NCBI GenBank assembly: GCA_002307375.1
Contig: NTJI01000003.1
Span: 62,001 to 126,000 of the forward strand
DNA: 64,000 nucleotides
From: Lysobacteraceae bacterium NML93-0399
GTDB lineage: Bacteria > Pseudomonadota > Gammaproteobacteria > Xanthomonadales > Xanthomonadaceae
Reading direction: 5' to 3'
Shown here: piece after piece, positions 4,777-62,095 of the stretch
Layout: every line of letters begins with the position of its first letter
Numbering within the stretch: the first letter of the stretch is position 1
Made by a program: the position numbers and the translations under genes
The notes under the pieces: generated by a model
Told to the model about the DNA's origin: nothing
What the model saw: only the letters and a program-made list of their open reading frames with translations
The model's database searches: none

Positions 4777-5895
4777 ATGGGCCTGTTCCGACTGCTTGTC
4801 ACTGCGCTGCTCGTCACCGGCGTCCCGCACGCGGCAGCATCGACGCCGGGCTTCGTGCCGGATGACATCGGCCGCGCCATCATCGGCAACGTGCAACGTG
4901 TAGTCGCGCCGACCGGTGTACAACATACGCACGCCTTGCGGATCGGCGGGCTCGAGCAGACGTTGACGGTCCGCGGCATGGATCACGCGAACCCGGTTTT
5001 GCTGTATCTGCACGGCGGTCCGGCCGCACCGATGATGCCGGCGTCCTGGACATTCCAGAAGCCGTGGGAGGATTTCTTCACCGTGGTCCAGTGGGACCAG
5101 CGCGCCGCAGGGCGAACGATGCGCGCCAATGATCCCGATGCGGTCGCACCGACGATCGCGATCGACCGCTACGTCGCCGATGCGATCGAACTGATCGAGT
5201 GGCTACGCGGCGCCTACGGCAAGCGCAAGGTGGTGCTGGTCGGCCACAGCTGGGGATCCGTCATCGGCATGCGCGTGCTGGCCGAACGCCCCGACCTGTT
5301 GCATGCCTACGTCGGTATTGGCCAGATCATCCACCCTTGGACCGACGAGCGCGTCGGCTACGACTATGCGCTCGACGCCGCGCGCGCGGAGGGCAACGCA
5401 GTGGCGATCGGCGAGCTCGAAGCGCTGATGCCCTACCCCGGCGACGACCTGCGCGGCGGACGCATCGATGCGCAGCGCAAATGGGTGATCCACTACGGCG
5501 GCCACAGCGCCTACCGCGACAATTCGGACTACTATTTCCGCGCGCAGCGGCTGTCGCCCGACTACACGCCCGCAGACCGTCGCGCGATCGCAGCGGGCAG
5601 CGCGCTGACGCTGGACCGCATCCTCGGACAGTGGAACACCGTGGATTTCCGCGGTCTGCGCCGGGTCGAGGCGCCGGTGTTGATGCTGATGGGCCGTCAC
5701 GACTACACCACCCCCTCGCAGCCGGTGGCCGACTGGCTCGCCTCGGTGCAGGCGCCGTCGAAACGCGGCGTTTGGTTCGAGCATTCGGCGCACTTCGCGC
5801 CGATCGAGGAGCCCGGCCGCACGCTGATGGCCCTGGTGACGCACGTGCGCCCGCTGGCGGTAGCAGCCGGCGACGGCCGGCAGCTCGACGACTGA
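4777..5895 (+). CDS. Exported alpha/beta hydrolase, proline iminopeptidase-like
   Basis: 372 residues from the ATG at 4777, with CCGGAG 6 bases upstream. The frame extends upstream, but only this start gives a clean signal peptide (MGLFRLLVTALLVTGVPHAAA). The core has LYLHGGPAAP (oxyanion HGGP), VVQWDQRAAGRT, the nucleophile elbow GHSWGS and late LMGRHDYTTP and FEHSAHF segments supplying Asp and His. These are hallmarks of peptidase family S33. A role in trimming N-terminal residues from peptides in the envelope is inferred; the substrate is unknown. Confidence 0.85.
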   Translation: MGLFRLLVTALLVTGVPHAAASTPGFVPDDIGRAIIGNVQRVVAPTGVQHTHALRIGGLEQTLTVRGMDHANPVLLYLHGGPAAPMMPASWTFQKPWEDFFTVVQWDQRAAGRTMRANDPDAVAPTIAIDRYVADAIELIEWLRGAYGKRKVVLVGHSWGSVIGMRVLAERPDLLHAYVGIGQIIHPWTDERVGYDYALDAARAEGNAVAIGELEALMPYPGDDLRGGRIDAQRKWVIHYGGHSAYRDNSDYYFRAQRLSPDYTPADRRAIAAGSALTLDRILGQWNTVDFRGLRRVEAPVLMLMGRHDYTTPSQPVADWLASVQAPSKRGVWFEHSAHFAPIEEPGRTLMALVTHVRPLAVAAGDGRQLDD

Positions 5896-5901
5896 CGCCG
5901 C

Positions 5902-6672
5902 TCAGGCCACGAACTGTTCGCTGAGGATGCGCTCTTCGAGATTGTGTTCGGGATCGAACAGCAGCGTGACCGTGCGCTCACGCGATTCGCGGATGGTGAC
6001 CTCGACCACGTCGCGCACCTCATGCGAATCGCCGGTGACGCTGACCGGGCGCTTGTAGGGGTCGAGCACGCGGAAACGCACCTGGGTGTCGGCACGCAGG
6101 ATCGCGCCACGCCAGCGCCGCGGACGGAACGGTGCGATCGGCGTCAGCGCCACCACGCCCGCGCCCAGCGGCAGGATCGGTCCGTGCGCGGAGAAGTTGT
6201 AGGCGGTGCTACCCGCGGCCGTCGACAAGATCACGCCATCGGCGACCAGTTCCTCCAGCCGGGTGATGCCGTTGAGATCGATGCGCAGATGCGCGGCCTG
6301 ACGGGTCTGTCGCAGCAGCGAGACTTCGTTGTAGGCCAGGGAAGTGATCGACGTGCCCGATTCGGTTTCGGCCGTCATCTCCAGCGGACGCAGCACCGCA
6401 GGCTCGGCGCGCGCAATGCGCGACAGCAGATCCTGCAGGCGATGCTGGTTCATCAGAAACCCCACGGTCCCGAGCTTCATGCCGTAGACCGGCTTGCCCA
6501 GCTGGCCGTGGCGATGCAGGGTCTGCAGCATGAAACCGTCGCCGCCCAGCGGCACCAGTACGTCGGCATGCTCCGGTTCGCACTGCCCGTGCAGCGCGGT
6601 CAACTCGGACAGGGCGCGCTGCGCCGCGTCGGCCTGGCTGGCGAGGAAGGCGATGCGGGGCGTTGCGGTCAT
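5902..6672 (-). CDS. nadK: NAD kinase
   Basis: 256 residues. The GGDG motif ([13 protein letters not shown], near residue 45), [23 protein letters not shown] and [23 protein letters not shown] are diagnostic of NAD kinase, which phosphorylates NAD to NADP with ATP. The length is a little short compared with E. coli NadK (292), as in other xanthomonads from memory. The ATG at 6672 gives [12 protein letters not shown]. It converges on the exported hydrolase gene with only 6 bases between stops. Confidence 0.92.
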
Positions 6673-7318
6673 CGGCAGGCCGGTGCGTGAACGTCGGCGC
6701 GCAGCTTAGCGCAGGCGGCCGCACGACGCGTGTGGTCCGGGGGTGCGAATGCGAACGCGCTGGGCGGCGACTGTAGGAGCGCGCTTGCGCGCGATGGCGC
6801 CTTGTCGGGAGAGCCCGATCGCGCGCAAGCGCGCTCCTACAGAAGAGCACGCTCGAACCATACGCCGTGCACGATTCCGCACCAGAAAAAGGCGCTGATC
6901 CGGCAATGACCTGACCTGTAGGAGCGCGCTTGCGCGCGATGGGGCCTTGTCGGGAAAGCCCCATCGCGCGCGAGCGCGCTCCTACAGCAGGACGCGCTCG
7001 AACCATACGCCGTGCACGATTCCGCACCAGAAAAGAAAAAGGTGCTGCTCCGGCAATGACATGACCTGCAGGAGCGCGCTTGCGCGCGATGGGGCCTTGT
7101 CGGGAAAGCTCGATCGCGCGCGAGCGCGCTCCTACAGAAGGACGTGCTCGAACCATACGGCGTGCACGATTCCGAACCGGAAAAGAGAAGCCGCTTCCGG
7201 CAATGACATGACCTGTAGGAGCGCGCTTGCGCGCGATGGGGCCTTAGCGGGAAAGCTCGATCGCGCGCAAGCGCGCTCCTACAGAAGGATGGGATTGCAC
7301 CGTGTTCCTGCGCTGGAA
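6673..7318. other. Gene-free region filled by a tandem REP array
   Basis: Apart from about 95 bases upstream of nadK, this stretch consists of four REP-type palindromes and the near-identical spacers between them. Open frames through it on both strands (repeating RSALARDGA or VGARSRA) are translations of the repeat and are not genes. Confidence 0.8.
6771..7284. repeat. Tandem array of four REP-type palindromic units
   Basis: Four 72-base palindromic units at 6771-6842, 6916-6987, 7066-7137 and 7213-7284. Each starts CTGTAGGAGCGCGC (third copy CTGCAGG) and ends GCGCGCTCCTACAG around a GATGGxGCCTTGTCGGGA core. The spacers (about 73-78 bases) are also repeated: each contains CTCGAACCATACGCCGTGC and a GATTCCGCACCAGAAAA-like segment, then CGGCAATGAC. 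The repeat period is therefore about 145-150 bases. Imperfections include short A-tract indels and CGCGAG/CGCAAG swaps. Confidence 0.9.
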
Positions 7319-7348: not shown

Positions 7349-10300
7349 TCAGCTGCGCTGTACCAGCTGCGAGACGCGCTGCACCGCGACCGATGCGGTC
7401 GGGTAGTCCAGCGAATTCTGCGCGGCGAGTTCGCCCAGCATCGCGAGCGTGAAACGCAGGATGGAATCGTCACGCTCCAGCCATGCCTGCACCTTGGCTT
7501 CGGGCGTCGCGCCGGGCATCGACAGCACCTGTCCGACGAGGGCGCGGTGCTGCTGGCCCAGTTCCTCGCGCAGCACGCCGCGCGCGACCGCATGCCAGCG
7601 GCCGTCGACTTCCAGCGCGTCGATCTGCTCGGTCAGCCACGGCAGGTTGAGCGCTTCGCCGAGGCGGAAGTACAGCCGTGCGACATCGACCGGCTTCTGC
7701 CGGCGTTCGCTGGCGACCTCGATGATGTCCCAGGCCGACTCCAGATACGGCAGTGCGGCCAGTTGCCCCGCGAGATCCTCGGGCACGCCCTTGTCGCGCC
7801 AGGTCTGCAGGCTGGCATCGTGCGCGGCGCGCTGGCCGTCGGCGATGATCTGCCGACCGTTGCGGATCGCGTGGAAGCCGTCGTGGTAGCGCTCGACCGC
7901 GGTGGTGATGTCCGGGATCGCGCCGGGGCGCGCCAGCAGCCAGCGGGTGAACGCACGTTGCAGGTTCCAGATCACCTGCAGCGCATCGACCTGCACCGCT
8001 TCCGGCACCGCGCCGTCGAGCGCGTCGATGCGGTTCCACAGCGTGCGCGCCTCGATCGTCTCGCGGGTGATCGTGAACGCCTTGGCGACCTCGCCCGGCG
8101 TGCGTCCGCTGTCCTCCTGCATGCGCATCAGGAACGTCGCGCCCATGCGGTTGATCATCTGGTTGGTCACCGCGGTCGCGATGATCTCGCGCTTGAGGCG
8201 GTGGTCCTCCATGAACGCGGCGTACTTCTTCTGCAGCGGCTGCGGGAAATAGCGCTGCAGTTCGCGCGACAGGTACGGGTCTTCCGGGATGTCGGAGGCC
8301 AGCATCTGGTCGAACGCGACCAGCTTCGAATACGACAGCAGCACCGACAGCTCCGGCCGGGTCAGCCCCTGGCCCTTGGCCTTGCGTTCGGAGATCTCGG
8401 CATCCGACGGCAGGAACTCGATCTGCCGGTCGAGCAGGCCCTGCGCCTCGAGCGTCCGGATGAAATGCCGCTTGGAGCCGAGCCGGGTGACGCTCATCCG
8501 CTCCATCAGGCTCAGCGCCTGGTTCTGGCGGTAGTTGTCCCACAGCACCAGGTCGGCGACCTCGTCGGTCATCGACGCCAGCAGCTTGTTGCGTGCCGGC
8601 ACGGTCAGCTTCTTCGACTGCACGACGGCGTTGAGCAGGATCTTGATGTTGACCTCGTGGTCCGAGGTGTCCACGCCGGCCGAATTGTCGATGAAGTCGG
8701 TGTTGAGCAGCACGCCGTGCAGCGCGGCCTCGATGCGGCCAAGCTGGGTCATGCCGAGGTTGCCGCCCTCGCCGACGACCTTGCAGCGCAGGTCGCGGCC
8801 GTCGACGCGCAGCGGGTTGTTCGCCCGGTCGCCGACGTCGGCGTTGCTCTCGCCCGAACTCTTGACGTAGGTGCCGATGCCGCCGTTCCACAGCAGGTCG
8901 ACCGGCGCGCGCAGGATCGCCGACATCAGTTCGTTCGGGCTCATCGCATCGACGGCGTCGTCGATGCCGAGCGCGGCCCTGGCCTGCTTCGACAGCGCGA
9001 TCGACTTCGCACTGCGCGGCCACACGCCACCGCCCTTGGCGATCAGCGCGCGGTCGTAGTCCTCCCAGCTCGAGCGCGGCAGCGCGAACATGCGCTGGCG
9101 CTCGACGAACGAGCGCGCGGCATCCGGGTCCGGATCGATGAAGATGTGGCGGTGGTCGAACGCCGCGACCAGGCGGATGTGCTCGGACAGCAGCATGCCG
9201 TTGCCGAACACGTCTCCGGACATGTCCCCGACGCCGACGCAGGTGAAGTCCTGGGTCTGCGAGTTGCGCCCCATCGCGCGGAAGTGGCGCTTGACCGACT
9301 CCCACGCGCCGCGCGCCGTGATGCCCATGCCCTTGTGGTCGTAGCCGACCGAGCCGCCCGAAGCGAACGCGTCGTCGAGCCAGAAGCCGTGCTCGCGGGC
9401 GATGCCGTTGGCGGTGTCGGAGAACGTCGCCGTGCCCTTGTCGGCGGCGACGACCAGATAGGGGTCGTTGTCGTCGTGGCGCACGACGTCGCGCGGCGGC
9501 ACGATCTCGCCGTCGACGATGTTGTCTGTGATCTGCAGCAGGCCATTGATGAACAGCGTGTAGCAGGCGACGCCCTCGGCGAACAGCGCGTCGCGGTCGC
9601 CGCCGGCCGGCGGCCGTTTGACGATGAAGCCGCCCTTGGAGCCGACCGGCACGATGACGGTGTTCTTGACCATCTGCGCCTTGACCAGCCCCAGCACCTC
9701 GGTACGGAAGTCCTCGCGGCGGTCGGACCAGCGCAGGCCGCCGCGCGCGACCGGACCGAAGCGCAGGTGCGTGCCCTCGATGCGCGGGCCGTAGACGAAG
9801 ATCTCGCGGTAGGGCTTGGGCTTGGGCAGGTCGGGCACACGCGCCGAGTCGAACTTGAAGCTGATCGTCTCGAGCAGGCTGCCCGACATCGTGCGCTGGT
9901 AGTAACTGGTGCGCAGCGTCGCGTCGATGACGCCGAGGTAGCTGCGCAGGATGCGGTCCTCGTCGAGGCTCGACACCCGGTCCAGCAGGCCCTTGAGCGC
10001 GTCGCGCGCGGCGTCGTACTGCGTGCCGCGGGCCTTGCCGCGCGCGGCGACCACCGGTTGCAGCAGCGACCACGTCGCCTCGTCACCCGACGACAGCGCC
10101 TGCAGCTGGGTCGCGAGCGCCTCGGCACCGGCGTCGATCTGCGCCCGGCTCTCGTGTCCGGTCCTGGGATCGAAGCGCGCTTCGAACACCTCGACCAGCA
10201 GCCGCGCGAGCAGCGGATAGCGGCCCAGGGTGTCCTCGACGTAGGCCTGCGAGAACGGCACGCCGACCTGCAGCAGGTACTTGCAGTAGCCGCGCAGCAT

Positions 10301-15923: not shown

Positions 15924-15995
15924 CTGTAGGAGCGCGCTCGCGCGCGAAGGGCCTGCACCGGGAACGCCTCATCGCGCGCGAGCGCGCTCTTACAG
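15924..15995. repeat. REP-type palindrome between the two metH genes
   Basis: Single 72-base unit CTGTAGGAGCGCGCTCGCGC...GCGCGCTCTTACAG (right arm has T for C in CTCTTAC). It lies between the stop of the first metH gene and the start of the second and can form a long hairpin in the shared transcript. Confidence 0.85.
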
Positions 15996-23850: not shown

Positions 23851-24453
23851 TCAGCGCGTGGCCGGCCTGGGCGCGGCCAGTGCGCGCTCGATCGCGGCGA
23901 CGATCGCCGGATCGTCCGGCGCCGTGCGGCTGCCCCACTGGCCCAGCACCCGTCCGTCGCGCCCCACCAGATACTTGTGGAAGTTCCACTGCGGCGCCTG
24001 CCCGGTCGCCTGGGCAAGCTGGCGGTACAAGGGCGTGGCGTCCGGCCCGGTGACGTGCACGCGCTGGAACATCGGGAACTTGACGCCATAGGTCAGCGTG
24101 CAGAATTCCTGGATCGCCGCCTCGTCCTCGAATTCCTGGTCCTTGAAGTCGCCCGACGGGAAACCGAGCACTGCGAAGCCCCGCGACCGCAGACGCGCAT
24201 GCATCGCTTCGAGCGCTTCGTACTGCGGCGTGAACCCGCATTTGCTGGCGGTGTTGACGATCAGCAGTACGTCGCCGCCATAGGTCTGGCGAAGGTTGAC
24301 GTTCTCGCGCGCAGCCAGCTGGCGGTACGTGTGATCCAGCACGTCTCCGCGGGTCGGCGACTGCTGCGCGAGCGCCATGCCAGCCAGGAGCGTCAGCCCC
24401 AGCGCCAGCGCGGTGCCTGCCAGACGGGACGCGGATCGGAACCTGCACACCAT
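23851..24453 (-). CDS. Exported glutathione-peroxidase-family protein
   Basis: 200 residues with a signal peptide ending ALAQ, so probably periplasmic, unlike E. coli BtuE. The peroxidatic Cys72 is in NTASKCGFTPQY, and Trp156/Asn157 lie in the late QWNFHKYLV segment. The usual FPxNQF motif reads FPSGDF here (Gly101-Asp102), so the catalytic Gln is absent. It would reduce peroxides with thiols, possibly thioredoxin-like donors instead of glutathione; this is inference. Confidence 0.85.
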   Translation of the reverse strand: MVCRFRSASRLAGTALALGLTLLAGMALAQQSPTRGDVLDHTYRQLAARENVNLRQTYGGDVLLIVNTASKCGFTPQYEALEAMHARLRSRGFAVLGFPSGDFKDQEFEDEAAIQEFCTLTYGVKFPMFQRVHVTGPDATPLYRQLAQATGQAPQWNFHKYLVGRDGRVLGQWGSRTAPDDPAIVAAIERALAAPRPATR

Positions 24454-24519: not shown

Positions 24520-24547
24520 TTGACACCCGCTGCGGTGGTGTTATAGT
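24520..24547 (+). promoter_or_regulatory. Near-consensus sigma-70 promoter of the YtrA-type operon
   Basis: TTGACA (24520-24525) and TATAGT (24542-24547) are separated by 16 bases. They lie 38 bases before the first start codon of the operon. This is the clearest sigma-70 promoter in the window. Confidence 0.75.
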
Positions 24548-24560
24548 TGCCTACAACACC
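24537..24560. promoter_or_regulatory. Inverted repeat over the -10 box, candidate GntR/YtrA operator
   Basis: GGTGTT (24537-24542) and AACACC (24555-24560) form a perfect 6-bp inverted repeat with a 12-base spacer, overlapping the -10 element. A GntR-family repressor gene is second in the operon, so autorepression at this site is a natural inference. Confidence 0.6.
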
Positions 24561-24584
24561 TACCCACTAGAGCAGGACGGTCCC

Positions 24585-24857
24585 ATGAACCGCAGGCTCC
24601 AAACCCCGATCATCGCATGCACCGCCGCGGCCCTGGCGTTGTCGGCCGGGTTGCTGTTCGCCGCCCCTGTACTGTCCGGCAGCGGTGTCGCGCCGGCCGC
24701 CGCGGCCGCCGTCGCCAAGACCCGAGTCCAGACCGAACGCCCATCGGCAACCACCGAGGCGGAGGTCGAATCCCCGCGCCCGCGCGCCCGACGTGCCCGA
24801 AGCGGCTTCGCCCTGCCCTATTTCTCGTTCGCCCGGGGCGCTGGTGGAAGGAGCTGA
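24585..24857 (+). CDS. Small exported or membrane-anchored protein, first gene of the YtrA-type operon
   Basis: 90 residues from the ATG at 24585. It has an N-terminal hydrophobic segment (about residues 8-30), an Ala-rich stretch, a Thr/Glu/Pro linker, a basic patch (RPRARRARS) and an aromatic C-terminus (ALPYFSFARG). I do not recognise the family. It is transcribed from the strong promoter and ends 4 bases before the GntR gene. The position suggests an envelope partner, sensor or leader of the ABC system; this is inference. Confidence 0.6.
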   Translation: MNRRLQTPIIACTAAALALSAGLLFAAPVLSGSGVAPAAAAAVAKTRVQTERPSATTEAEVESPRPRARRARSGFALPYFSFARGAGGRS

Positions 24858-24861
24858 GGTC

Positions 24862-25233
24862 ATGGCCAATATCGAATGGAGCGACGGCGCTCCCATCTAC
24901 CGGCAGTTGAAGGAGCGCGTCATCGCGATGATGCTCGACGGCGTGCTCAAACCCGGCGACGCGTTGCCCTCGGTGCGCCAGGTGGCCGCCGACTACCAGC
25001 TCAACCCGATCACCGTGTCCCGCGCCTACCAGGAACTCGCCGACGAGGCGCTGGTGGAGAAGCGCCGCGGCCTGGGCATGTTCGTCACCGAGGAAGCGTC
25101 GAAGAAGCTGCGCAGCAGCGAGCGCGAGCGCTTCCTCACCGACGAGTGGCCGCAGGTGGTCGAACGGATCGAACGCCTGGGGCTGTCGGCCCGGGATCTG
25201 CTGCAGTCCATCGGCAATGGAGCCAACGAATGA
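24862..25233 (+). CDS. GntR-family transcriptional regulator, YtrA subfamily
   Basis: 123 residues from the ATG at 24862 (GGAG and GAGGT just upstream). The winged helix occupies residues about 8-75, with IYRQLKERVIAMML and LPSVRQVAADYQLNPITVSR followed by the wing GLGMFVT. The short C-terminal tail of about 45 residues, with no large ligand domain, is typical of the YtrA subfamily, whose genes usually sit beside ABC transporters. Its stop overlaps the ATPase start (ATGA). It probably represses its own operon through the inverted repeat over the promoter. Confidence 0.88.
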   Translation: MANIEWSDGAPIYRQLKERVIAMMLDGVLKPGDALPSVRQVAADYQLNPITVSRAYQELADEALVEKRRGLGMFVTEEASKKLRSSERERFLTDEWPQVVERIERLGLSARDLLQSIGNGANE

Positions 25234-26105
25234 ACGCCGTCCCAGATGTTCCGGTGATCACCGCGCGCAATCTGTCCAAGGTCTACAAGGGCGCGCGCGC
25301 GCTCGACGGCACCAGCTTCCAGATCCCGGCCGGCCGCATCGTCGGCCTGATCGGCCCCAACGGCGCCGGCAAGACCACTGCGCTCAAAGCGCTGCTGGGC
25401 CTGATCCGCTTCGATGGCGACATGTCGGTACTCGGCCGTGACCCGCGCACCGAGCGCGACGCGCTGATGAACGATGTCTGCTTCATCGCCGACGTCGCGG
25501 TGCTGCCGCGCTGGATGCGGGTGCGCGATGCGATCGACTTCGTCGAGGGCGTGCATCCCCGCTTCGACCGTGCCCGCTGCGAGCGCTTCCTGGCCAACAC
25601 CAAGCTGTCGCCCAAGCAGCGCGTGCGCGAAATGTCCAAGGGCATGATCGTGCAGCTGCACCTCGCACTCGTCATGGCGATCGACGCCAAACTGCTGGTG
25701 CTCGACGAACCGACCCTGGGCCTCGACATCCTCTACCGCAAGCAGTTCTACCAGCGTCTGCTGGAGGACTACTTCGACGAGCAGAAGACCATCATCGTCA
25801 CCACGCACCAGGTCGAGGAGATCGAGCACATCCTCACCGACGTGCTCTTCATCCAGAACGGCAAGATCGTGCTCGACGCGCCGATGGACGAGGTCGGCGA
25901 CCGCTTCGTTGAAGTGCTGGTCAACGCCGACCAGCTCGAGGCCGCCCGCGCCCACCGCCCGATCGACGAGCGCGCCCTGCCCTTCGGCAAGACCGTGATG
26001 CTGTTCGACAACGTGCCCGTCACCACCCTGTCGGCGTTCGGCGAGACCCGCACGCCGGGCCTGGCCGACCTGTTCGTGGCCACGATGAAAGGAGCCTACG
26101 CATGA
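25230..26105 (+). CDS. ABC transporter ATP-binding protein (YtrB-like)
   Basis: 291 residues. Walker A GPNGAGKTT is at 42-50, Walker B is LLVLDEPTLGLD and the H-loop is TTHQ. The signature motif reads MSKGM instead of LSGGQ, as in some YtrB-like ATPases. The C-terminal 70 residues form an extra domain. It overlaps both neighbours by ATGA, so regulator, ATPase and permease should be made in step. Export or envelope-stress function is inferred from the YtrA context. Confidence 0.88.
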   Translation: MNAVPDVPVITARNLSKVYKGARALDGTSFQIPAGRIVGLIGPNGAGKTTALKALLGLIRFDGDMSVLGRDPRTERDALMNDVCFIADVAVLPRWMRVRDAIDFVEGVHPRFDRARCERFLANTKLSPKQRVREMSKGMIVQLHLALVMAIDAKLLVLDEPTLGLDILYRKQFYQRLLEDYFDEQKTIIVTTHQVEEIEHILTDVLFIQNGKIVLDAPMDEVGDRFVEVLVNADQLEAARAHRPIDERALPFGKTVMLFDNVPVTTLSAFGETRTPGLADLFVATMKGAYA

Positions 26106-27151
26106 ATGCCTCCATCGATTCGGTGAACGTGGCCGCGCCCACGCGCACGCCGCCGCATGCCACGCACCGGTTCCGTCTGCTGTTGCGGCGCGAGTACTGG
26201 GAGCACCGTGGCGGCATCCTGTGGGCGCCCATCATTGCCGGCCTGGTGTCGACCCTGCTCTCGGCCGGCCTGCTGATCGCGGGCATCTGGTTCGCACACA
26301 AGTCGGTCGCCGAAGGCGGCACGATCCAGCACAACGGGGTCAGCCTCAACGGGCTGGATCTCGCCGGCCTGGCGCAACTGATGAGCCAGGACGACATCCG
26401 CCAGATCAGCGAAGGCCTCGCCGCCACCCTGCTGTTGTCGGCCAGCTGGCCCTGGCTGGTGATGATCTTCGTCGCGTTCTTCTATTGCCTGGGCGCGCTG
26501 TACGACGACCGCCGCGACCGCAGTGTGCTGTTCTGGAAATCGCTGCCGATCTCCGACACCTCGACGGTGCTGTCGAAGGTCGTCACCGCTACGCTGACCA
26601 TCCCGATCGTCGCCACGGTCGCCGCTGTGCTGACCGCCTTCCTGTTTCTGCTGATGCTCAGCATCGCGATCGCCGCGCACGGCGCCAATCCGCTGCCGTT
26701 CCTGTGGACCAATGGCGTCTTCGTGCGGTTCGCGATGGTGATGTTCGCGGTGATTCCGGTCTACGCATGCTGGGCGCTGCCGACAGTCGGCTGGCTGCTG
26801 ATGTGTTCGGCATGGGCCAGGAGCAAGCCGTTCCTGTGGGCGGTGCTGATCCCGGTCGGGCTGGGCGTGGCGACCTCGATGACCGGCATCCTGCAGGTCT
26901 TCGGACTGGAGCGTCACTGGCTGTGGCCGAACGTGATCACGCGCATGCTGCTGGGCACCGCGCCGCTGACCGGCAGCGATCTCAACGCCCTGGGTGAGGC
27001 GATCGAATCGGGCGCCCGACCGCTGGATCTGATGACCGTGCAGGCCTTCTACAGCAACTTCGCCGAGCCCTCGATGTGGATCGGCATGGCCGTCGGCGCG
27101 GTGATGATCGCCATCGCCATCCGCCTGCGCCGCTGGCGCGAGGAAGGCTGA
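26102..27151 (+). CDS. ABC transporter permease (ABC-2-like)
   Basis: 349 residues with about six predicted membrane segments: near residues 38-62, 105-130, 155-185, 205-235, 240-265 and 325-343. A cytoplasmic N-terminus (RFRLLLRREYWEHRGG) resembles ABC-2 permeases, with a large loop after the first segment. It overlaps the ATPase gene by ATGA. It forms the membrane half of the YtrA-type transporter; the substrate is unknown. Confidence 0.82.
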   Translation: MNASIDSVNVAAPTRTPPHATHRFRLLLRREYWEHRGGILWAPIIAGLVSTLLSAGLLIAGIWFAHKSVAEGGTIQHNGVSLNGLDLAGLAQLMSQDDIRQISEGLAATLLLSASWPWLVMIFVAFFYCLGALYDDRRDRSVLFWKSLPISDTSTVLSKVVTATLTIPIVATVAAVLTAFLFLLMLSIAIAAHGANPLPFLWTNGVFVRFAMVMFAVIPVYACWALPTVGWLLMCSAWARSKPFLWAVLIPVGLGVATSMTGILQVFGLERHWLWPNVITRMLLGTAPLTGSDLNALGEAIESGARPLDLMTVQAFYSNFAEPSMWIGMAVGAVMIAIAIRLRRWREEG

Positions 27152-27183
27152 GCCCACCCGCCCGTCTTCTCGGAGATCCGCAG

Positions 27184-27849
27184 ATGAAATCCGCAATTGC
27201 TGCGCTTGCCTTCGCCTTGTGTCTGCCAACGTCCGCCTGGGCGTCCGCTTCCGACGACGGCGGCGTGCGCGCCGAGATCGCCCGTGACATGGAGGAGGCG
27301 CGGCGCGAGATCCGCGCCGACATCGCCAGATCCCGTGCCCGGCTCGACATCGACAACCTCGACGTGTCCAACAGCCTGCAATTCAATGGGTCGGCGCGGC
27401 GCAGAACCGATGCCGATGCCCGCCCCGTGCTGCCGAAAGCCGAGATCACGCCGCAAGGCGATTTCCTGATCGACGGCGCCGCGGTCGAGGTGGATGCCGC
27501 GCAACGCCGCCAGTTGCAGGCCTACCGCGAGCAGGTGATCGCGGTCGCCCGCGCCGGCATCGACATCGGCGAGATCGCGGCGCTGGCCGCCGTGGACTCG
27601 GTCGATCGTGGACTGGGCTCGCTGATCGTCGGTTCGATGACCGGCAGCGTGCAGCGGCAGGTGCAGAAAACCGTGATGCAGTCCGTGGGGCCGGGCGTGG
27701 AGAAGATCTGCGCGGCCATGCCGGCCCTGCACGCCTCGCAGCAGCAGCTCGCCGCCAGCGTCCCGGAGTTCGGTCCCTACGCGCGGATCGAAGCCAGCGA
27801 CGGCGAGCGCTGCGTCCGCGAGGTCCGGCAGCAGTTCGCCCGTTCCTGA
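27184..27849 (+). CDS. DUF2884 (YggN-like) periplasmic protein
   Basis: 221 residues with a signal peptide ending AWAS. The core has the YggN-like block GDFLIDGAAVEVDAAQR followed by LQAYREQVIAVARAGIDIG and a Cys pair near the C-terminus (Cys179 region EKICAAM and GERCVRE). The start has GGAG 8 bases upstream. It is 32 bases after the permease gene, so in the same operon. It is a clear relative of the last gene of this cluster. The function of the family is unknown. Confidence 0.72.
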   Translation: MKSAIAALAFALCLPTSAWASASDDGGVRAEIARDMEEARREIRADIARSRARLDIDNLDVSNSLQFNGSARRRTDADARPVLPKAEITPQGDFLIDGAAVEVDAAQRRQLQAYREQVIAVARAGIDIGEIAALAAVDSVDRGLGSLIVGSMTGSVQRQVQKTVMQSVGPGVEKICAAMPALHASQQQLAASVPEFGPYARIEASDGERCVREVRQQFARS

Positions 27850-27952
27850 TGCTCAGGACAGGACCTTCGCGTCACGCCTAGGCCGACCGTTTCGACCGTT
27901 CACGCACGGGCGCCCGTGCCCGACAACGCCGCACTTCGAGGAGATTCGCCAG

Positions 27953-28807
27953 ATGCCGTCTTCCGCCCTCGTCCGTCGTCCTTTCGTGCTCGCACTGGCC
28001 GCCCTGTCCGCGCTACCGCTCCTGGCCAGTGCACAGAACGGGCCGCAATGCCGCCACAGCCAGCCCCGAGAACTCGCACTGCAGCTCGACGGCGTGCGCA
28101 CGGTCCGTTTCGACATCGGCAACAGCAAGCTGCGCGTCGACGGTGCCTCGCACGCCGATCCCGTGCTGCGCGGCCGCGCCTGCGCGTCGACCGAATCGGG
28201 ACTGGACGCGCTGGTCCTCGAGCAGCGGCGCGATGGCGACACGTTGCACGTCACGATGCGTCGTCCGACCGGTACCAGCGGCTGGATGGGCAACCAGTAC
28301 GCCTACCTCGATCTCGCCGGCCAGGTGCCGGCGAACGTGCTGGTACAGGCGGTGATCGGCTCGGGCGACGCCTGGGTCACGGGTGTGGCCGCGGCCAGCG
28401 CCGATGTCGGCTCGGGCGACGCCGAACTGCGCCGCATCGCCGGGCGCGCCACGCTCAAAGTCGGTTCGGGTGACATCACCGTCGATGAGGTCGGCGCGCT
28501 GAAGGTGCTCTCGATCGGCTCGGGCGATGTCGAAGCACGCAACGTCCGCGGTCCGGTCGAGGCCGGCAGCGTCGGCTCGGGCGATCTCGCGGTCGACGGC
28601 GCCGCGGGCGATGTCCGCATCGGCAGCCTGGGCTCGGGCGACATCGACCTGCGTGCAGTGCGCGGCAATGTGCATGTGGGCTCGATCGGCTCCGGCGACC
28701 TCGACGTGCGCGACGTGGACGGCGGCCTGCAGGTCGACTCCAAGGGCAGCGGCGACATTTCCCACCGCGACGTCCGCGGCGACATCAGCCTGCCCCGCCG
28801 CCGCTGA
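27953..28807 (+). CDS. Exported beta-repeat protein with eight GSGD repeats (DUF4097-like)
   Basis: 284 residues with a signal peptide ending ASAQ. From residue 136 to the end eight repeats each contain G-S-G-D, spaced 17, 18, 18, then 19 residues four times. Hydrophobic residues alternate between them (VxSVGSGDLxVxxxxG pattern). This predicts a right-handed beta-solenoid like the DUF4097/GIN-domain adhesin-like proteins. GAGGAG precedes the ATG. The gap from the upstream gene is 103 bases. Being exported and placed in the YtrA operon, it is probably an envelope protein. Confidence 0.75.
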   Translation: MPSSALVRRPFVLALAALSALPLLASAQNGPQCRHSQPRELALQLDGVRTVRFDIGNSKLRVDGASHADPVLRGRACASTESGLDALVLEQRRDGDTLHVTMRRPTGTSGWMGNQYAYLDLAGQVPANVLVQAVIGSGDAWVTGVAAASADVGSGDAELRRIAGRATLKVGSGDITVDEVGALKVLSIGSGDVEARNVRGPVEAGSVGSGDLAVDGAAGDVRIGSLGSGDIDLRAVRGNVHVGSIGSGDLDVRDVDGGLQVDSKGSGDISHRDVRGDISLPRRR

Positions 28808-28828
28808 ATTTTTTTTCCGGAGCCGAAC

Positions 28829-29560
28829 ATGCGCAAGCCCATCTTTCGTCCCCTCGTCCTGGCATTGGCGATCTGCAGCTTCGCCACGCTGACGGCCTGC
28901 GGTCGCGACGCCCCGGCGCCGGAGGCCGGCGCTGACGCACAGTCGGCCGAGGCGGCCGACGACGGCTTCATCGCCCGCTCCACCCGCCGTGCGCTCGAAA
29001 GCGCACGGCGTGACCTGGCGCAGAAGAACATCAGCGTCGGCGGCACCGGCAGCGGTGGCCTCGACGTCAACGGCTTCCGCTTCGGCGGCAACGACGCGCG
29101 CACCGCCGGCCTGCCCAGGGCCGAGATCAGTCCTGCCGGCGACCTGCTCATCGATGGCGAACCGGTCACCGTCGACACGGCGCAGCGCGACCTGCTGCTC
29201 GCCCATCGCGCCAACATCGTCGCGATCGCCGAAGCCGGCATCGTGATCGGCGTGCAGGGCGCGCAGCTCGGCGCAGAGGCTGCGAGGGGCGCTGTCACCA
29301 GCCTGCTGGCCGGCAATGCCGAAGCGTTCGAACAGCGCATGCAGGCTGAAGCAAAGAAGATCGAAGCCGAAGCACAGACACTCTGCGGCCACCTGCCCGA
29401 CCTGCTCGCCTCCCAGCAGGCGCTCGCTGCCGCGCTGCCCGCCTTCCGGCCTTACGCGACGATGGATGCCGGCGACGTCGAGGAGTGCCGAAAGGATGCC
29501 GGCAGTGGCGACAACCCCGCTGCCGAGGCGGACGCGGCGACGGAAATGGCTTCGCGATAG
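28829..29560 (+). CDS. DUF2884-like lipoprotein, paralogue of the gene two upstream
   Basis: 243 residues with a lipoprotein signal (lipobox LTAC, Cys24). The family block GDLLIDGEPVTVDTAQRDLL and following AEAGIVIG match the earlier DUF2884 protein (GDFLIDGAAVEVDAAQR). The C-terminal Cys-containing segments (TLCGHLP, VEECRK) also correspond. A soluble and a lipidated version therefore flank the GSGD-repeat gene. It is last in the operon and is followed by REP units. Confidence 0.7.
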   Translation: MRKPIFRPLVLALAICSFATLTACGRDAPAPEAGADAQSAEAADDGFIARSTRRALESARRDLAQKNISVGGTGSGGLDVNGFRFGGNDARTAGLPRAEISPAGDLLIDGEPVTVDTAQRDLLLAHRANIVAIAEAGIVIGVQGAQLGAEAARGAVTSLLAGNAEAFEQRMQAEAKKIEAEAQTLCGHLPDLLASQQALAAALPAFRPYATMDAGDVEECRKDAGSGDNPAAEADAATEMASR

Positions 29561-29594: not shown

Positions 29595-29663
29595 CGCAGG
29601 CGCGCATTTGCGCGAGAGTGGCTTCGCCGAGAAAGCCTTTCGCGCGCAAGCGCGCTCCTACAG
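29595..29663. repeat. Degenerate REP-type unit
   Basis: The right arm GCGCGCAAGCGCGCTCCTAC is intact. The left arm is altered (CGCAGGCGCGCATTTGCGCG), so the hairpin is imperfect. Confidence 0.7.
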
Positions 29664-29738
29664 GAGGAGGGAGCCTCTCCGAGGCTTGTCCCGCATTTCG
29701 CGCTGACCGCCGCTCGGGACGGCGCCGCGCTCGCATTG

Positions 29739-29814
29739 TTTTTGTAGGAGCGCGCTTGCGCGCGAGGGGCGTCACCTAGAAGGCCCTTCGCGCGCAAGCG
29801 CGCTCCTACAAAAA
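29739..29814. repeat. Perfect REP-type palindrome with T-tract flanks
   Basis: Arms TTTTTGTAGGAGCGCGCTTG and its complement ending CTCCTACAAAAA. The long stem with flanking T and A runs would work as a bidirectional terminator between the convergent YtrA operon and fumC. Confidence 0.85.
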
Positions 29815-29896
29815 CCCCGGGGGCACGGCCTGGAGCGGCCTGCTTCGCATCTCGCATCGACGGCCGCAGCGGCTGTGCCCGCGCCCGCCTTTCTCT

Positions 29897-29962
29897 CTGT
29901 AGGAGCGCGCTTGCGCGCGAGGCGCTCTACCGAGACGGCCTGTCGCGCGCACTCTCGCAGGC
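29897..29962. repeat. REP-type unit with decayed right arm
   Basis: The left arm CTGTAGGAGCGCGCTTGCGC is intact. The right arm is CGCGCGCACTCTCGCAGG, so the pairing is partial. It lies 40 bases beyond the fumC stop. Confidence 0.7.
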
Positions 29963-44989: not shown

Positions 44990-45056
44990 TGAGGAGCGCG
45001 CTCGCGCGATGGCGCGTTGCCGGTCAGGCCCCACCGCGCGCGAGCGCGCTCCTGCA
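44990..45056. repeat. Degenerate REP-type unit between the peroxiredoxin gene and pbpC
   Basis: Arms TGAGGAGCGCGCTCGCGCG and CGCGAGCGCGCTCCTGCA. GTAG has become TGAG at the left end. It separates two convergent genes and may help terminate both. Confidence 0.7.

Positions 45057-59254: not shown

Positions 59255-62088
<2,834 letters not shown>

Positions 62089-62095
<7 letters not shown>

Follow-up and report, generated by a model that had tools for sequence, protein, structure and literature searches.

The 64,000-nucleotide stretch analyzed here (contig NTJI01000003.1 of Lysobacteraceae bacterium NML93-0399, positions 62,001 to 126,000; "the window") carries, at positions 24585 to 29560 of its plus strand, a seven-gene operon for a GntR-family regulator of the YtrA type, an ATP-binding cassette (ABC) exporter, a small leading protein, and a tail of exported toastrack and DUF2884 proteins. 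The operon is a member of a known gene grouping with a known operator type, since both the grouping (Ravi et al. 2024; PMC11237479) and YtrA-type ABC regulons (PMC4494728) are in print. We consider it fairly probable that it is an auto-repressed envelope-stress export operon. The evidence for this reading comes from a palindromic operator that covers the promoter, from the recurrence of this operator ahead of an efflux operon, and from the relation of the regulator to HpaR1/YtrA of Xanthomonas.

A seven-gene operon with one promoter-like site

The operon starts with a gene for a small exported or membrane-anchored protein of 90 amino acids (24585 to 24857), followed by the regulator (123 amino acids; 24862 to 25233), an ABC ATPase (291 amino acids; 25230 to 26105), and an ABC-2-like permease (349 amino acids; 26102 to 27151). 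Behind this core lie genes for a DUF2884-like protein (221 amino acids; 27184 to 27849), a toastrack beta-helix protein with GSGD repeats (284 amino acids; 27953 to 28807), and a DUF2884 lipoprotein (243 amino acids; 28829 to 29560), all on the plus strand. The spacing is tight, with a 4-base gap, then two 4-base overlaps, and then gaps of 32, 103, and 21 bases. Between positions 24300 and 30100, we observe only one promoter-like match, TTGACA-16-TATAGT at 24520 to 24547 (plus strand), ahead of the first gene; shuffled sequences average 0.4 matches. The way the genes are spaced and the occurrence of just one promoter-like site make co-transcription of all seven probable.

The regulator matches the Pfam GntR model at 53.7 bits (cutoff 27) over residues 13 to 75, leaving 48 residues after the helix-turn-helix match, in line with the short C-terminal part of YtrA-type proteins (about 50 residues expected). 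With its GntR winged-helix domain, this short C-terminal part, and an ABC operon with a long palindrome, it shows the features of the YtrA subfamily. The ATPase matches ABC_tran at 74 bits (cutoff 25), and the permease, with seven hydrophobic stretches, has ABC2_membrane_5 as its sole and weak Pfam match (17 bits; cutoff 25). Both the toastrack protein, which matches DUF4097 (34.1 bits; cutoff 22.9) and DUF2807 (28.4 bits; cutoff 24.2), and the first DUF2884-like protein have an apparent signal peptide, and the DUF2884 lipoprotein carries a lipobox, LTAC, recognized by eye.

A first-pass annotation of this DNA had counted six genes, one fewer than are present. Its gaps of 32, 103, and 21 bases behind an overlapping or nearly touching core agree with the coordinates, its YtrA-type regulator and ABC exporter are borne out, and its one-operon view fits the single promoter-like site before the first gene. 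What it termed a GSGD solenoid is real, being a toastrack according to both the Pfam matches and a beta-helix structure model. Of the two DUF2884 proteins it named, the lipoprotein passes the Pfam cutoff (38.3 bits; cutoff 30.6), whereas the first copy stays below it (26.5 bits), although the two are mutually homologous (39% identity; E = 7e-24).

A conserved operator covering the promoter

The -10 element of the promoter-like site falls within the palindrome GGTGTTATAGTTGCCTACAACACC (GGTG-N16-CACC; 24537 to 24560, plus strand). We regard this palindrome as a putative repressor site through which the YtrA-type regulator would repress its own promoter, since it sits on the -10 element and since the published, very probable orthologue, HpaR1 of X. 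oryzae, shows negative autoregulation (PMC8546981).

A regulator search gave 80 named loci of the family, from Luteimonas, Pseudoxanthomonas, Lysobacter, Vulcaniibacterium, Stenotrophomonas, Xanthomonas, and other Lysobacteraceae, of which 76 could be counted for the operator (the remaining four, L125, L150, L156, and L165, begin too near the regulator). The palindrome arms are exact in 74 of these, L134 included, and one base off in two, of which L144 is one. A separate first search gave 60 relatives, two of which (G040 and G053) had only weak GntR matches, and the 58 loci fetched comprise 36 from the same genus and 22 from other families of the order. In the 22 loci from other families, the best arms have no mismatch (9 loci), one (10 loci), or two (3 loci).

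The transport core is equally constant. Genes for GntR regulator, ATPase, and permease are adjacent in all 58 fetched loci, and the permease is present in 79 of the 80 named loci, the other one (L109) ending 0.4 kb past the regulator start. One Luteimonas locus (L094, positions 8375 to 9207, the same place as L036) has its ATPase frame split in two, through either a sequencing error or a broken gene.

The operator recurs before an RND efflux operon

When the genome of this bacterium is searched with the strict operator pattern at up to three mismatches, it yields matches solely at this operon. A looser pattern finds exactly two places (none in a backwards control), the second of which lies upstream of an HlyD-type adaptor gene followed by an AcrB-type pump gene, that is, a resistance-nodulation-division (RND) operon. 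This second site has four mismatches to the strict pattern and appears only with the looser one.

Across 61 genomes, the strict pattern was found in 54, with two matches altogether in the backwards control. The extra operator sites that were fetched adjoin an adaptor gene in 19 of 19 cases within the same genus and in 10 of 14 cases in other families, where the other 4 do not. A scan that started from the adaptor, covering 30 of the 37 genus-level genomes, gave best upstream matches with 3 (19 loci), 4 (5 loci), 5 (2 loci), or 6 (4 loci) mismatches, whereas all 348 control windows of the same adaptor loci, mostly coding DNA, had at least 8. Three Stenotrophomonas-type genomes show 5 mismatches at the adaptor site. 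As judged from these sequence matches, the ABC and RND operons appear to share an operator, a pairing found throughout the 30 genus-level genomes covered.

A third operator place exists in four genomes of Xanthomonas or Stenotrophomonas (as in L254, 994 to 1470, and L261, 1554 to 2517). It precedes genes for a small exported protein, which carries VQVRPSADQ repeats and falls in no Pfam family, and for a SpoU/TrmL-type methylase. YtrA of X. citri reportedly represses three operons directly, one of them with trmL and XAC0231 (abstract of Zhou et al. 2017). That operon fits the third operator place, so that parts of the YtrA regulon may already be in print. In the passages drawn on here, we found no description of the RND pairing across the order, of the small protein family, or of a periplasmic toastrack, and fuller lists of YtrA regulons may hold the RND pairing.

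Relation to HpaR1/YtrA of Xanthomonas

In Xanthomonas, the very probable orthologue of the regulator is HpaR1/YtrA. Each of five Xanthomonas genomes (5/5) holds one full-length homologue at 84% identity and 205 bits, values that refer to the homologues in these genomes and not to the named HpaR1 of X. campestris or X. citri, and all remaining matches reach at most 39.8 bits. The operator is exact in four of the four Xanthomonas genomes searched, and the X. citri YtrA motif cited in PMC6746942, GGTG-N16-CACC, is the same as the operator of the window. HpaR1 has been described as a GntR regulator of the YtrA subfamily (PMC4730234) and corresponds to XC_2736 in X. campestris (PMC8995066).

Published expression data point in the same direction. 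Mutation of hpaR1 in X. campestris raises expression of XC_2740 13.84-fold and that of acrA (XC_3861) 3.21-fold, the former being the strongest increase in a table restricted to genes shared with the Clp regulon (PMC6430473). We infer from locus-tag order and gene name, not from sequence, that XC_2740 is the DUF2884 gene and XC_3861 the RND adaptor gene. With respect to binding, the published HpaR1 footprint at gumB differs from the operator at 7 of 21 positions, a fit reached by 1 of 5,000 shuffled sequences and by 2 of 2,064 31-mers of the window. The two systems also differ, in that HpaR1 has been studied as a virulence regulator and in that the genome of the window has two operator places, compared with three in the four Xanthomonas or Stenotrophomonas genomes.

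Known transporter systems and specific efflux as an alternative

The closest published description is that of Ravi et al., who report operons of Toastrack, ABC ATPase, permease, GntR regulator (described with a distinct helical C terminus), and membrane-associated DUF2884 lipoprotein, and suggest the latter as a solute-binding partner (PMC11237479). The same five kinds of genes stand side by side in the window. The window adds a second DUF2884 protein and the leading small protein, neither of which is mentioned in the passages of that paper drawn on here. The first-pass annotation rightly stated that no textbook function exists for this grouping; the set of genes as such is, however, already in print. 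As for the regulon, most YtrA regulons consist of a single ABC operon, and YtrA operons combine ABC transporter genes with a long palindrome with outlying GT/AC (PMC4494728). Membership in NCBIfam LiaG was considered and rejected (27.2 bits; cutoff 285).

In Bacillus subtilis, the ytr operon combines YtrA with several ABC genes. The operon studied here resembles it in having a regulator and an ABC exporter in a self-controlled operon with a long palindrome (PMC4730234), but differs in its single ATPase and single permease, its exported toastrack/DUF2884 tail, and its two-operon regulon. An Acinetobacter efflux system likewise unites a GntR gene and ABC genes in a single operon and has a stress and drug phenotype; it holds, however, a dehydrogenase, a ferredoxin, and a substrate-binding protein, and its regulator is an activator (PMC13104710). 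Given this different gene content and mode of regulation, we reject it as the same system.

The regulon includes an RND pump, and the best NCBIfam match of the ATPase is PmtA (132.7 bits; cutoff 350), with PmtR second best for the regulator (57.4 bits; cutoff 200). These observations would agree with a Pmt-like operon for efflux of a specific antibiotic or toxic peptide, its regulator sensing the substrate directly. We nevertheless think this explanation unlikely, since the scores lie so far below the membership cutoffs that we reject assignment to the staphylococcal Pmt exporter, since there is just one ATPase and one permease, and since the roughly 48 residues after the helix-turn-helix leave little room for a ligand pocket.

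The leading small protein

The small protein has a hydrophobic N terminus, a variable middle, and a conserved C-terminal motif, PYFSFA, the codons of which lie at 24816 to 24833 (plus strand). It matches no Pfam or NCBIfam model. A hidden Markov model of the protein finds it in all 36 genus loci and in 78 of the 80 named loci; the sequence of the two others is truncated upstream. In a search of the 61 genomes it was found in 39, nearly always at this place, with three weak matches elsewhere.

In nearly all loci examined, the stop codon lies 1 to 12 bases ahead of the regulator start and the middle of the frame is highly variable, as would be expected if the frame were a non-protein leader that serves only translation of the regulator. 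Such a role is very improbable, however, in view of what is conserved. P[YF]FSF stands shortly ahead of the stop in 72 of the 73 small proteins with a placed start, and a hydrophobic N terminus is usual (61 of 73 above 1.6). In the five core columns of the motif, the third codon positions vary (0.46 to 1.57 bits) while the first and second are nearly fixed, which argues that selection acts on the small protein itself.

In other families, P-[FY]-[FY]-x-F is recognizable by eye in 10 of 22 loci, and in 9 of these 10 no toastrack or DUF2884 gene was detected near the core. Since the motif persists in loci where no tail gene was detected, the small protein would pair with the core rather than with the tail. 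We tentatively suggest, while regarding it as doubtful, that the small protein may be part of the exporter, anchored at its N terminus and facing the periplasm, where P-[YF]-F-S-F-A might dock on the permease or sense its state and so inform the repressor.

The exported toastrack and DUF2884 proteins

The model of the toastrack protein is a beta-helix (predicted local distance difference test score [pLDDT], 95) that resembles the solved toastrack-type chains 4qrk, 3jx8, and 3lyc (Foldseek E values from 8e-8 to 8e-4), as well as 4opw (E = 1e-3; template modeling scores, 0.62/0.66). Of 64 toastrack homologues, 63 show a loose A-x-A signal pattern, and a cysteine pair is conserved in 42 of 43 toastracks and in 72 of 73 DUF2884 proteins, as fits an oxidizing periplasm. 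Ravi et al. argue that Toastrack proteins are generally intracellular (PMC11237479), which differs from the apparent signal peptide and cysteine pair in the window. On account of the signal pattern and the cysteine pair, the toastrack branch of this operon is probably periplasmic.

The DUF2884 lipoprotein is modeled as mainly helical (pLDDT, 86). Foldseek gave no PDB match at an E value of 0.001 or below for this model, VIA-align returned helical-bundle rows only (Z up to 8.4), which are not interpretable, and the best hit of a DUF2884 profile search of solved structures had an E value of 0.83. A lipobox-like pattern is limited to 61 of 95 DUF2884 proteins.

Proposed mechanism and points that weigh against it

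We propose that a dimer of the YtrA-type repressor would bind the palindrome over the -10 element of its own promoter and, via a weaker copy, the promoter of the RND efflux operon. A cell envelope or drug signal may relieve this repression, upon which the cell would produce the ABC exporter with its one ATPase and one permease and the small protein as its partner in the membrane or periplasm. Members of this family would add periplasmic proteins of the toastrack and DUF2884 kinds, including one DUF2884 protein with a lipid anchor. The exporter would carry some compound across the inner membrane. The toastrack might serve as a rigid surface for docking in the periplasm, with the DUF2884 proteins as possible binding partners in the periplasm or on the side of the outer membrane, the solute-binding idea being that of Ravi et al.

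How closely the tail belongs to this mechanism depends on its distribution. All 79 named loci that reach far enough have a toastrack and/or DUF2884 gene behind the permease (toastrack in 64, DUF2884 in 77, two strong DUF2884 matches in 31), as do 35 of the 36 genus loci, the exception (L045) being a contig end. The exported genes are therefore not absent or elsewhere in most relatives within the family, an outcome that the first-pass annotation had named as decisive against its grouping of all these proteins into one envelope device. The gene order it proposed to check is not conserved, and outside the family the tail is mostly missing, as described below. The link to envelope stress is supported indirectly, by the operator before the RND pump and by one genome of another family, where pspA (121.7 bits) and pspC (72.7 bits) come next after the core (L085, about 5352 to 6694).

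Several observations weigh against reading it as an auto-repressed export operon. The tail order of the window, DUF2884-toastrack-DUF2884, occurs in just 12 of the 79 named loci, the order being shuffled elsewhere. In other families, a tail gene lies near the core in 1 of 22 loci (L068, two DUF2884 genes), some of these loci stopping soon after the permease, and no toastrack was found among the 34 downstream frames scanned (of 54 listed, from 20 of the 22 loci). A tail that is shuffled and mostly missing elsewhere may be linked to transport only loosely, and the psp link comes from one genome. With respect to regulation, 7 of the 61 genomes have no operator match at up to three mismatches, and the control windows for the RND sites are mostly coding. 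The engXCA footprint of HpaR1 fits the operator poorly (9 mismatches), and HpaR1 is reported to activate genes such as gum and engXCA as well (PMC4730234); it is thus not a repressor only, and simple repression leaves the activation unexplained. The restriction of the hpaR1 expression table and the locus-tag basis for identifying XC_2740 and XC_3861 count on the same side.

The tail keeps no fixed order or content, and most other families have no tail genes near the core. We therefore conclude that the exported tail is a shuffled addition specific to this lineage rather than a required component of a single device, and we reject an obligate device of all seven genes. This leaves an explanation to which we give slightly less than an even chance, namely that core and tail have separate functions that share a site, with the core exporting and the toastrack/DUF2884 proteins acting as general envelope stabilizers at a stress-responsive promoter. 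It would agree with tail genes that have been rearranged, duplicated, or lost without regard to the core, with a core that retains its operator in families mostly without the tail, and with the downstream place taken by pspA and pspC in one genome. However, in 79 of 79 named loci the permease is followed immediately by one or more tail genes, which suggests more than convenience, and the short gaps between the genes of the window likewise speak for a closer tie.

Neighboring sequence

On the minus strand, a divergent glutathione-peroxidase-like gene (23851 to 24453) starts about 80 bases from the operator. It is kept beside the operon in many loci and might, for this reason, share its regulation. 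The window also contains 20 matches to GTAGGAGCGCGCTTGCGCGCGA (0.05 expected). They form paired inverted copies similar to repetitive extragenic palindromes at 6773 to 7282, 15926 to 15993, 29640 to 29920, and 61851 to 62092, with single copies at 45034 and 56586, and one cluster lies directly behind the operon.

Significance

The operon joins two literatures that are not connected in the papers drawn on here, the comparative-genomic prediction of a Toastrack-ABC-GntR-DUF2884 system of the envelope and the study of the Xanthomonas virulence regulator HpaR1/YtrA. It also yields an unstudied family of small proteins with a clear motif and a toastrack that looks periplasmic. If the orthology holds true, the primary and ancient targets of HpaR1/YtrA would be the ABC exporter operon and the RND pump, and part of the wide effect of HpaR1 on virulence could follow from a change in the cell envelope.

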